From NCBI GenBank assembly GCA_021783515.1, contig JAJXTV010000005.1:1-64000 (forward strand): a DNA stretch of 64,000 bases, read 5' to 3'. This stretch comes from Nitrospirota bacterium. Its GTDB lineage: Bacteria; Nitrospirota; Thermodesulfovibrionia; Thermodesulfovibrionales; UBA6898. Both the position numbers and the translations under genes were made by a program. Under the pieces are notes generated by a model. The model was given only the letters and a program-made list of their open reading frames with translations. It did no database searches and had not been told where the DNA came from. This document shows, piece after piece, positions 34,581 to 37,606 of the stretch; position 1 is the stretch's first letter; each line of letters begins with the position of its first letter.

Positions 34581-34697
34581 GCCGTTTCTTCGGGACCCCT
34601 CGAGTCCGTAGTCTTTTTTCCGCTATCGCGCCGTATCAGATGATCTCCTGATGGCGGATGAATGTAATTTTTCGGGCGGTCCATGCTAGAATTGTGC

Positions 34698-35615
34698 ATG
34701 AAGAAGGTCGGTTATTTTTACGACGACATCTTTCTGCGCCACGATACCCCTTACGGACATCCGGAGTGCGGCGACAGACTGATTGCAATCAATAGTGCGC
34801 TCAGGAAGAACGGCCTGTGGGATAAACTCGTTCACAGGAAGCCGCAAAAAGCGGAAAAAGACGATATCCTCGCCGTCCATACACCGGCATACTACGAAAA
34901 GATCCTCGGATTTATCGGCTACTTCGACCCCGACACCTACCTCTCCTCCGCTACCTTAGAGGCTGCTCTTTACGCTGCAGGCGCGGCCGTCGCTGCCGTG
35001 GATATGTGCCGGAAGGGCGATATCGACAGGGCGTTCTGTGCAGTGCGCCCGCCCGGCCACCATGCGGAGGCCGATCGGGCAATGGGATTTTGCATCTTCA
35101 ACAACGTCGCGGTCGGCGCCCGGTATGCGCAGAAAGTCGGCTACAGGAAGGTTTTTATCGTCGACTTCGACGTCCATCACGGCAACGGCACACAGCATAT
35201 ATTCGAGAAAGATGAGACGGTATTTTATTTCAGCACTCACCAGTATCCTCATTACCCGGGAACGGGCGGCGATGCCGAAAGGGGAAAGGGAACGGGCAGG
35301 GGCTTTACCTACAACATCCCGATGCACTACGGGGCGGGAGATAAGGATTATTTCCCGGCCTACCATGATTTTCTGCCCGGGCTGATAGAGGGCTTTCGTC
35401 CCGATATTCTGCTTGTTTCGGCCGGCTACGATCTTCACGGCGGCGATCCCCTGTCGGGGATCCGTGTCACAAACGAAGGGATCAGGAGCATCGTCAGGTC
35501 GATTCTCGAGGGCGGTCGGGATATCCCCTCTGTTTTTTGCCTCGAGGGCGGATACAACCTCATTTCTCTCGCCGACTCGGTGACGATTACCCTGGAAGAA
35601 CTCCTTCGGGACTAG
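34698..35615 (+). CDS. Histone deacetylase/AcuC-family deacetylase
   Basis: 305 residues from ATG 34698 (an ATG at 34683 is alternative). The zinc hydrolase motifs are intact: R-P-P-G-H-H-A-E, D-F-D-V-H-H-G-N-G-T-Q with the metal-binding Asp and His, S-A-G-Y-D-L-H-G-G-D-P, and E-G-G-Y-N near the end. Bacterial members remove acyl groups from lysine side chains or small molecules such as acetylpolyamines. TAGAAT (34687-34692) ends 5 nt before ATG 34698, suggesting a leaderless transcript. Its convergent neighbour is a lysine-rich histone-H1-like gene set, a possible but unproven functional link. Confidence 0.92.
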   Translation: MKKVGYFYDDIFLRHDTPYGHPECGDRLIAINSALRKNGLWDKLVHRKPQKAEKDDILAVHTPAYYEKILGFIGYFDPDTYLSSATLEAALYAAGAAVAAVDMCRKGDIDRAFCAVRPPGHHAEADRAMGFCIFNNVAVGARYAQKVGYRKVFIVDFDVHHGNGTQHIFEKDETVFYFSTHQYPHYPGTGGDAERGKGTGRGFTYNIPMHYGAGDKDYFPAYHDFLPGLIEGFRPDILLVSAGYDLHGGDPLSGIRVTNEGIRSIVRSILEGGRDIPSVFCLEGGYNLISLADSVTITLEELLRD

Positions 35616-35635: not shown

Positions 35636-35983
35636 TCAGAGCCTGCCCGTATAGCGATATACTTCTTTCTTCACCTTCGGATAGACATAGGGAAAAAGAA
35701 TGAAGACGAACTGGGTCGAGAGAAATTCCATCGTCCCGATCCTTTGTCCGACATTGTCCTTGATCTGTACCAGCGAATGGCGACAGACCGAGGTGCATCC
35801 GATCCAGAGGAAGCCCGCCAGAAGGCTCATGCCGAGAAGCGCAATGCTCAATTCAGCGCGGCGCATCACCTGAAGAAGAAAAAAAACGCAGGCGGCAAAA
35901 GAGGCCATTGCCGCAACTCCGGAGAGGCGGTAAAGGGAAAGCGACTTAAGAATGTCAGGAGTGTGCCGGGGCCTGCGCTTCAT
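35636..35983 (-). CDS. Small membrane protein, unknown
   Basis: 115 residues from the ATG at 35983, with two membrane helices (about 18-40 and 45-70) and a basic, aromatic C-terminal tail (Y-P-K-V-K-K-E-V-Y-R-Y). The frame is open upstream to 36064, but that part overlaps the zinc-ribbon gene deeply. Starting at 35983 reduces the overlap to 29 bases. I do not recognise the family. It is the last gene of a three-gene minus-strand group. Confidence 0.6.
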   Translation of the reverse strand: MKRRPRHTPDILKSLSLYRLSGVAAMASFAACVFFLLQVMRRAELSIALLGMSLLAGFLWIGCTSVCRHSLVQIKDNVGQRIGTMEFLSTQFVFILFPYVYPKVKKEVYRYTGRL

Positions 35984-36140
35984 GCGTGTGAGCGAGAAAG
36001 ACCTCGCCGCAGATGCATTGAAACCGTCCGTTTCCGATCGGACGAAACGGGGAGTCAGACTCACCCAGCTTGTAGCCCTCGTCGTCCCTCTTGCAGCGGG
36101 GGCAGACGATGATGTCGTCCGGAAAGCAGCCCGTGCACAT
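35955..36140 (-). CDS. Small zinc-ribbon protein
   Basis: 61 residues with three CxxC pairs: C-T-G-C at the very start, C-P-R-C near 13-16 and C-I-C near 42-44 (Q-C-I-C-G-E-V-F). This gives a zinc-ribbon-like layout, with a His-rich end (A-H-T-H-E). It starts 8 bases after the stop of the desulforedoxin/H1-like gene and overlaps the following membrane-protein gene. No specific function can be assigned. The short length makes the call tentative, but cysteine spacing and operon packing favour a real gene. Confidence 0.6.
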   Translation of the reverse strand: MCTGCFPDDIIVCPRCKRDDEGYKLGESDSPFRPIGNGRFQCICGEVFLAHTHEAQAPAHS

Positions 36141-36148
36141 CCTGCGGC

Positions 36149-36445
36149 CTATTTCTTTACGGACTTCCTGACAGCGGCTTTCTTTTTCTTCTGCACGGTC
36201 CTTCCCGCGGCCTTTTTTGGCGTTGCTTTTCTTGCCGCAGTCTTCTTCGGCGCGGCTTTCCCGGCAGTCTTCTTTCCCGTGCTCCTTGCCGTCTTTTTCG
36301 AAGAAGCCCTGGCCTTCTTTGGAAACGCCGTCTCGGAGACCTCCATGCCGCAGCAGTAGATCGGCATGAGTTCGGTCTCGGCGGCTTCATTCACCGTAAT
36401 TTCACATCCGCACTGCGTGCACTCATAGGTAATCACCTTTGCCAT
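36149..36445 (-). CDS. Desulforedoxin-like domain fused to a histone-H1-like Lys/Ala-rich tail
   Basis: 98 residues. Residues 1-36 have C-T-Q-C at 9-12 and a C-C-G-M-E at 31-35, the spacing of desulforedoxin (one Fe or Zn bound by four cysteines). From about 40 onward the chain is almost only Lys, Ala, Arg, Thr and Pro in K-K-T-A / K-K-A-A type repeats, like bacterial histone-H1 tails that bind DNA without sequence preference. ATG 36445 follows a good GGAGGA ribosome site; upstream frame extension to 36514 is not coding. Redox- or metal-linked nucleoid binding is an inference. It lies convergent to the HDAC-like gene. Confidence 0.75.
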   Translation of the reverse strand: MAKVITYECTQCGCEITVNEAAETELMPIYCCGMEVSETAFPKKARASSKKTARSTGKKTAGKAAPKKTAARKATPKKAAGRTVQKKKKAAVRKSVKK

Positions 36446-36592
36446 GCCACCGTTCCTCCTTCCGTGTTCGTGTTGCTTTTCCTTCATTATAAACCGTTTC
36501 CCCTGCCCGCGCAATATTCTGATGACCTTCCGTCTACCCCGTCCCCCACGGCGCCTCTTTTCTCCCGGCCTCAGGCTCGGTTACAATATATC

Positions 36593-37606
36593 ATGATCAA
36601 AATCGGTTGCCTCGACTTTCCGCGCCTTTCTCTTGCCCCCCTCGCCGGCATCAGCGACCTTCCCTTCAGGATGCTGAATCGTTCTTACGGCTGCCGCTTC
36701 GCATTTACCGAGATGGTGAGCGCCCGTTCCTTGACCTACCAGAGCCGCCAGACGATCAGGATGGTTTCAACGGCCTGCGCCGACAGGCCGCTGGGGATAC
36801 AGCTTCTTGCAGAGGACGGCGACGTCCTGCAGCGCGCACTCGCGATGCTCTCTGAAAACGTGTATGAGATGGTGAACCTGAATGCGGCATGTCCGGTCGA
36901 AAAGGTGACCAAAAAAGGCGAAGGCGCCGCCCTGATGAAAAATCCGTCGAAACTGGCATCGCTCCTGCGCGTAATGGCGCGGAATTCGAGCCTGCCCGTA
37001 ACGGTGAAGATACGCTCGGGATGGGAAGAAAAATCGGTTAACGCGCGGGATGTAGCCCTGTATGCCCAGGATGCCGGCGTACATGGCGTCTTCATTCACG
37101 GCCGCACCAGAGAACAGAGATATGCCGGAGCGGTGGACTATGGAGTGATCAGACGGATCAAAGAGGCCCTCGACATCCCGGTCATTGCCAGCGGGGACGC
37201 CCTCTCCCCCCCCCTGATTAAGAGAATGTTCGATGAAACGGGATGCGACGGAGTGACCATAGCGAGGGGGGCCCTCGGCAATCCCTGGATCTTCAGGGAG
37301 ACCGAGACGTTCCTTGAAACGGGGGAAATCCCCTCCCGCCCTGCCCTTCAGGAACTCATGCAGGTGATGACCTCACATCTTGATATGTGCTGCGACTTTT
37401 ACGGAGGGACGGCGGGCACGACCCTTTTCCGCAAATTTTATTCCTGGTATACAAAGGGGCTCCCCGGGGTGAAACCTCTTCGCGAGACGGCCTTTCATGC
37501 CTCAACAAGGGAACAAATGGTCCGTTTGATCCGACAGGTGGAGGAAGCCGCGGCTTCGGCCGGTCCCGGAGGAAGCCTCAGTCCGACGGCGCCGGGAACG
37601 AGGTGA
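36593..37606 (+). CDS. dus: tRNA-dihydrouridine synthase
   Basis: 337 residues from ATG 36593. TIM-barrel flavoenzyme features: L-A-P-L-A-G-I-S-D-L-P-F-R at the start, catalytic cysteine in L-N-A-A-C-P-V, V-K-I-R-S-G-W, H-G-R-T-R-E-Q-R-Y and S-G-D-A. It reduces uridines in the tRNA D-loop with NADPH. The frame is open to 36464 but those residues are not family-like. TACAAT (36582-36587) ends 5 nt before the ATG and no Shine-Dalgarno sequence exists, consistent with a leaderless message. The 3' end overlaps the convergent histidine kinase gene by 29 bases. Confidence 0.94.
   Translation: MIKIGCLDFPRLSLAPLAGISDLPFRMLNRSYGCRFAFTEMVSARSLTYQSRQTIRMVSTACADRPLGIQLLAEDGDVLQRALAMLSENVYEMVNLNAACPVEKVTKKGEGAALMKNPSKLASLLRVMARNSSLPVTVKIRSGWEEKSVNARDVALYAQDAGVHGVFIHGRTREQRYAGAVDYGVIRRIKEALDIPVIASGDALSPPLIKRMFDETGCDGVTIARGALGNPWIFRETETFLETGEIPSRPALQELMQVMTSHLDMCCDFYGGTAGTTLFRKFYSWYTKGLPGVKPLRETAFHASTREQMVRLIRQVEEAAASAGPGGSLSPTAPGTR

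Follow-up and report, generated by a model that had tools for sequence, protein, structure and literature searches.

Small Nitrospirota proteins that pair a desulforedoxin-like cysteine knuckle with a histone-H1-like tail, in either domain order

Small proteins that join a four-cysteine, desulforedoxin-like head to a Lys/Ala-rich, histone-H1-like tail recur across Nitrospirota. The same two modules are found in either order, head first or tail first, so that, as far as sequence comparison can tell, their combination looks meaningful. The first of these proteins was found in a stretch of Nitrospirota DNA of 64,000 nucleotides, hereafter the window. An earlier note on this DNA had described a four-cysteine metal domain followed by a Lys/Ala-rich tail within 98 residues, and both the open reading frame (ORF) and its translation bear this out. 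The family as a whole fits its wording, a desulforedoxin-like head fused to an H1-like tail, and a second family with the reverse order adds weight to it. The gene and its surroundings are arranged as follows:

36149-36445, minus strand: ORF of the 98-residue protein, with C9-T-Q-C12 ... C31-C32-G33 and a Lys/Ala-rich tail
36332..36445, minus strand: head, residues 1-38, a desulforedoxin-like CX2C-X18-CC-G knuckle, assigned from invariant residues, hhalign and PF06397 matches
36149..36331, minus strand: histone-H1-like Lys/Ala-rich tail, residues 39-98 and stop codon, assigned from composition and low model confidence
35955..36140, minus strand: Zr61, a 61-residue Cys-rich, zinc-ribbon-like protein, encoded directly after the 98-residue protein on this strand and present in 14 of the 176 genomes of the order
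35636..35983 (end approximate), minus strand: small putative membrane protein with an uncertain start codon, overlapping Zr61, assigned from its ORF and conservation
34683..35615, plus strand: HDAC-type deacetylase, a positional neighbour only (PF00850, Hist_deacetyl, E 1.6e-89)
36593..37606, plus strand: dusB, tRNA dihydrouridine synthase, divergent from the gene of the 98-residue protein (TIGR00737, 312.5 bits against a cut-off of 293.3), its start inferred from homologues

The 98-residue ORF is a real protein-coding gene. It is preceded by a strong Shine-Dalgarno sequence, GGAGG, and comparison of the head codons with two genus relatives gave 15 and 18 third-position differences, whereas the first and second positions gave 4 each. 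This predominance of third-position changes indicates purifying selection on the protein. Matches were found in 15 of the 27 genomes of the family, counting the window genome, and a search with the full protein found a single copy in its own genome. No Pfam or NCBIfam family scored above its cut-off for the window protein. A chance low-complexity ORF is ruled out by the Shine-Dalgarno sequence, the codon-position bias and the homologues.

A head-only profile, built from 15 relatives and run on the 176 genomes of the order, matched 38 of them at E<=3e-12, with one further partial copy at a contig end. In an alignment of 32 heads (the 38 then known minus six near-duplicates), the only invariant residues were C9, C12, G13, P28, C31 and C32. 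The second cysteine is separated from the vicinal pair by 18 residues in 53 of the 54 head-first loci and by 19 in the other, whereas the gap is of 15 residues in all 30 of the best PF06397 loci read, which represent the true desulforedoxins. The window protein therefore has the cysteine pattern of PF06397, CX2C plus a vicinal CC, with a gap of 18 residues in place of the 15 of that family. The heads aligned with the true desulforedoxins over all four cysteines in hhalign, with a probability of 96.7 (E 3.4e-10, E-values being for single pairs), while the negative controls, two sets of Cys-rich proteins of these genomes (Zr61 and the C-terminal zinc finger of NrdJ), gave 0.3 and 1.8. PF06397 was matched by 18 of the 32 heads at E<=0.1, above every other Pfam family, and four relatives (G020, G021, G127 and G007) exceed its curated cut-off. 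The window protein falls below that cut-off and has no PF06397 match at E<=1, and it is therefore best described as a divergent relative, outside PF06397 as now defined. Weak matches to the head profile (E 1e-6 to 1e-3) coincide with proteins above the PF06397 cut-off, except at five places in family f8 and in one match of 20 residues (G125:C11). These weak matches were excluded from the head-first family, and the five f8 places were moved to the tail-first group. On this sequence evidence, the head-first heads are distant desulforedoxin relatives that form a distinct CX2C-X18-CC subfamily.

Structure-based comparisons gave a more mixed picture, so that the likeness of fold lends support at most. 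A profile search of the PDB matched desulforedoxin 1cfw over positions 6-39 (E 0.0069). The top scores went to multi-finger C2H2 proteins (E down to 5.9e-8), matched in short pieces around the CX2C, and partial matches to bL33 and Rpo12 were also retrieved; the matches covering all four cysteines were to desulforedoxin and desulfoferrodoxin. The predicted structure of the head is of moderate confidence (mean pLDDT 72.7), and Foldseek returned no match at E<=0.001 for either the full or the head-only model. In a VIA structural alignment of this moderate model, desulforedoxin 1dxg ranked second (Z 4.0, 1.6 A over 34 residues). First came the zinc ribbon of a release factor (Z 4.6), and the knuckles of RbpA and MCM tied with desulforedoxin.

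Residues 37-98 of the window protein carry a net charge of +23, with 39% Lys and Arg. A basic tail, of at least +6 in each case, is present in 53 of the 54 head-first loci. Fourteen of these loci came to light through searches with the complete protein, including its tail, and 40 through head-only profiles; in the latter set, the tail is present in 39, the exception being L176. The tails of the 54 loci range from 16 to 122 residues, with a median net charge of +18 and 45% Lys and Arg; the tail is thus kept in presence and free to vary in length and sequence. In family f25, which belongs to another class and carries the gene in 12 of 14 genomes, the tails are long AKKK-type repeats. The 15 short true desulforedoxins read lack such basic tails. 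Beyond residue 40, the model of the window protein is of low confidence (pLDDT 39-50 as block means), and in composition, variable length and low model confidence the tail is of the kind found in Hc2 and AlgP. Hc2 of Chlamydia binds DNA and varies in size through lysine-rich repeats (PMC2848022), and AlgP of Pseudomonas, an H1-like protein with a KPAA-repeat tail, provides a precedent for DNA binding by such tails (PMC9239181).

The head-first arrangement was read at 54 loci, in eight families and at least two classes of Nitrospirota, and the tail-first arrangement at 28 loci, in seven families: f1, f3, f5, f8, f10, f13 and f15 (L190-L209, L166-L173). Eight f8 genomes encode 57 to 74 K/A-rich residues followed by a C-terminal CX2C-X18/19-CC head. 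A profile of the f8 tail-first heads, run on 395 genomes of the phylum, matched 34 of them at E<=1e-6, and 20 further loci (f1, f3, f5, f10, f13, f15) all have the Lys-rich part first and the head last, some with short N-terminal stretches, of about 20 residues in L190 and L194. Tail-first heads aligned with the true desulforedoxins and with the head-first heads in hhalign, with probabilities of 96.6 and 96.1, respectively, and those outside f8 share residues of their own, among them V-D and a CGC-like loop motif. Two separate fusions are the simplest reading of these sequences, although heads of 38 residues may be too short for proof. Both types were found together in eight of the genomes read (G012, G017, G018, G022, G125, G130, G134 and G174), and the window genome has no tail-first match at E<=1e-6. 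The loci read do not include G016 (partial, at a contig end), G230, a second copy in G173 (at a contig edge) and 8 of the 36 places matched by the tail-first profile, and the figures for tail composition omit the tail-first loci L191, L192, L200 and L207, which were filtered out.

A plasmid search with one head of each type gave no match, and none was confirmed for the f8 tail-first heads among viral contigs. Phyla beyond Nitrospirota were covered by two wider contig scans only, one of which, with a single protein, gave no match, while the other retrieved three Nitrospirae loci. No constant neighbour of the tail-first genes was seen by eye at 20 loci, within the stretches available. At L193 and L195, in two f15 genomes, the tail-first gene adjoins genes that, from their sequence, we take to be ferritin-like and rubrerythrin-like; at L195, it also lies near a true desulforedoxin.

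The genes around the head-first loci differ among families. Zr61 adjoins the head-first gene in 11 of the 14 genomes of the order that carry it (10 loci near it by the strict score, 11 counting L072). Its codon differences are also mainly at third positions, and neither Pfam nor NCBIfam assigns it to a family above cut-off. In four f12 genomes, the head-first/Zr61 pair is followed by a gene that we take to be DoxX-like and that matches the NCBIfam HvfX below its cut-off. Zr61 and the membrane gene are conserved at the same place in G014, G015, G017 and G018, and the membrane gene also occurs in G011 and G012 without the gene of the 98-residue protein. In the window, dusB diverges from the head-first gene across positions 36446-36592, and it likewise diverges from a tail-first gene in G047 (L202:1361-1793). 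Within 9 kb of head-first loci, dusB was found at five, the same five as the deacetylase. In E. coli, dusB is in one operon with fis, which encodes a nucleoid protein.

The most frequent linkage involves nrdJ, which encodes class II ribonucleotide reductase. At 26 of the 54 head-first loci it lies within 9 kb and never on the opposite strand; these loci belong to f1, f10, f12, f13 and f25 and thus to two classes. The stretches read vary in length, so that neighbour counts are lower bounds. Distances were measured between matched stretches: nrdJ is downstream in six f1 genomes (6-180 nt) and upstream in f10, f12 and f13. In each of the 11 f25 loci read (L178-L188), it is again upstream, by 461-711 nt, and nrdJ, the H1-tailed knuckle protein and ttcA follow one another on one strand. 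In G007 (L026), two tandem head-first paralogues stand directly upstream of nrdJ. Three NrdJ proteins, one each from f1, f12 and f25, all pass TIGR02504, the two long ones also passing NF006417. Assuming that 3 Mb of genome hold one or two nrdJ genes, we estimate that a chance hit within 9 kb would occur at about 1% of loci, which indicates that the linkage is not due to chance; it may, however, reflect shared descent of gene order rather than function. No nrdJ was seen at the other 28 head-first loci, some of them cut by contig ends, nor, over the 2 to 10 kb available, at any of the 28 tail-first loci. In the window genome (G000), class II ribonucleotide reductase is encoded twice, once in a short and once in a long form. 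The two nrdJ matches lie on contigs C46 and C28, and the gene of the 98-residue protein on C48, so that they are unlinked. In a limited open literature collection, a search for NrdJ with histone H1 retrieved only one paper, unrelated to this subject.

We consider it about evenly balanced whether the 98-residue protein is a small nucleic-acid-binding, probably nucleoid-associated protein whose knuckle serves as a dimerising or docking module. Its long disordered Lys/Ala-rich tail would bind DNA (or RNA) by charge, as H1-like proteins of the Hc2/AlgP type do. The compact N-terminal CX2C-X18-CC knuckle would hold one Zn or Fe ion and would either dimerise, letting two tails bridge DNA, or dock, placing the tail near a partner. 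Metal binding, dimerisation, nucleic-acid binding and nucleoid location are what we infer for this protein, and an Fe site might in addition let redox state control it. RNA or polyphosphate would be an equally good ligand for a polybasic tail. This explanation has no need of the deacetylase.

The earlier note had proposed an acetylation-controlled, redox-sensitive DNA-binding protein whose tail would be deacetylated by the neighbouring HDAC-type enzyme. Its description of a convergent zinc deacetylase with intact catalytic residues stands in part. The enzyme matches Hist_deacetyl and can be aligned with either catalytic domain of HDAC6, keeping the His-His pair, DxDVHH, AGYDxxxGDP and the Tyr of GGY, motifs that presumably have active-site roles; but it is not the next gene, as two small genes intervene. 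The lysine-rich tail would be a plausible substrate, and the gene order is shared locally by the window genome, three other genomes of the genus and G014, so that synteny, which had been suggested as a check, is not strictly absent. Linkage and co-occurrence are not conserved beyond close relatives, however. The deacetylase is a core gene, present in 157 of the 176 genomes of the order at E<=1e-60 and in 26 of the 27 family genomes at E<=1e-20, and only 5 of the 54 head-first loci have it within 9 kb. In G011 and G012, the deacetylase, the membrane gene and dusB stand together with no gene of the 98-residue type between them, and in G013 and G134, a protein of this type is present with no deacetylase match at E<=1e-60. 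Moreover, the deacetylase adjoins a formate-THF ligase gene in 6 of the 13 other loci read (L124, L125, L126, L127, L129 and L132, in G009, G011, G012, G020, G021 and G131), and it is also beside this gene in G014 and G015; the adjacency hints at a metabolic substrate. With a core enzyme that is mostly unlinked and an arrangement that exists without the 98-residue protein, the pairing is best taken as local gene order. The deacetylase is probably just a neighbour, a functional pairing is not supported and deacetylation of the tail is, in our judgement, highly improbable. An HDAC-type neighbour in one genus is no evidence for bacterial 'histone' deacetylation.

Other roles for the 98-residue protein do not involve the deacetylase. 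The basic tail might bind RNA or the ribosome, the knuckle being a zinc ribbon as in small ribosome-associated proteins, which would agree with weak Foldseek matches that include archaeal ribosomal small zinc proteins (9znf_BV, 9e71_BY), with the partial profile matches to bL33 and Rpo12 and with the adjacent tRNA-modification genes (dusB in the window, ttcA in 11 f25 loci). We find this rather unlikely: neighbouring genes prove little, the structural and profile matches are all weak or partial, and those that span all four cysteines are to desulforedoxin and desulfoferrodoxin. A service to NrdJ, as a regulator, docking factor or electron or metal shuttle, would account for the same-strand linkage at 26 loci in two classes, for the close spacing in f1 and f25 and for the three confirmed NrdJ proteins. 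Nevertheless, the side and the distance of nrdJ vary between families, it was not seen at 28 of 54 head-first and 28 of 28 tail-first loci in the stretches available, and in the window genome it is on other contigs. Conserved gene order may outlive function, and such a role needs no basic tail; we regard it as decidedly unlikely. The protein could also organise granules of polyphosphate or another polyanion, as suggested by AlgP, which associates with polyphosphate granules and is required for their even spacing (PMC9239181). No polyphosphate gene was recognised near the loci, whose neighbours were annotated in part, and the head is unlike the putative helical domain of AlgP, which leaves us with very little confidence in a granule organiser.

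A nucleic-acid-binding, probably nucleoid-associated protein is the most likely of these readings. If its knuckle controls DNA binding, the protein would be a bacterial counterpart of linker histones that itself senses metal or redox state, and this in a phylum known mainly through lineages that have not been cultured. A more ambitious version, which we offer as a long shot, is a phylum-wide linker-histone-like system, built at least twice from a desulforedoxin-type Fe/Zn knuckle and polybasic tails in opposite orders, in which the metal site would switch chromosome compaction in response to redox state or metal supply and the proximity of the head-first gene to nrdJ would couple packaging with dNTP supply. 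The opposite domain orders provide natural replicates for testing the role of each part.

Searches of the limited open literature collection for desulforedoxin with histone H1-like, nucleoid-associated or Nitrospir*, and for desulfoferrodoxin with lysine-rich, found no description of the combination. Desulforedoxin is a Fe(SCys)4 homodimer. The present heads share with it, and with the N-terminal domain of desulfoferrodoxin (PF06397), the CX2C-G ... CC-G knuckle, a Tyr before the first Cys and hydrophobic beta positions; they differ in the X18 loop, which is three residues longer, in the invariant Pro before the CC and in the basic tail. RbpA and other rubredoxin-like zinc ribbons have a knuckle of comparable shape (VIA Z 3.2-3.9 for RbpA chains), but the Pfam matches listed for the 32 heads (25 of 29 families) do not include RbpA, which, to our knowledge, has no CC pair. 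Likewise, we know of no metal knuckle in Hc2 or AlgP. Those two proteins share the Lys/Ala-rich low-complexity region, of variable length in Hc2 (PMC2848022, PMC9239181), and the N-terminal domain of AlgP, unlike the metal knuckle here, is putatively helical (PMC9239181). Each module is familiar from a known system; their combination appears to be undescribed, as far as that literature collection reaches, and its recurrence in both orders across a phylum is the main finding.
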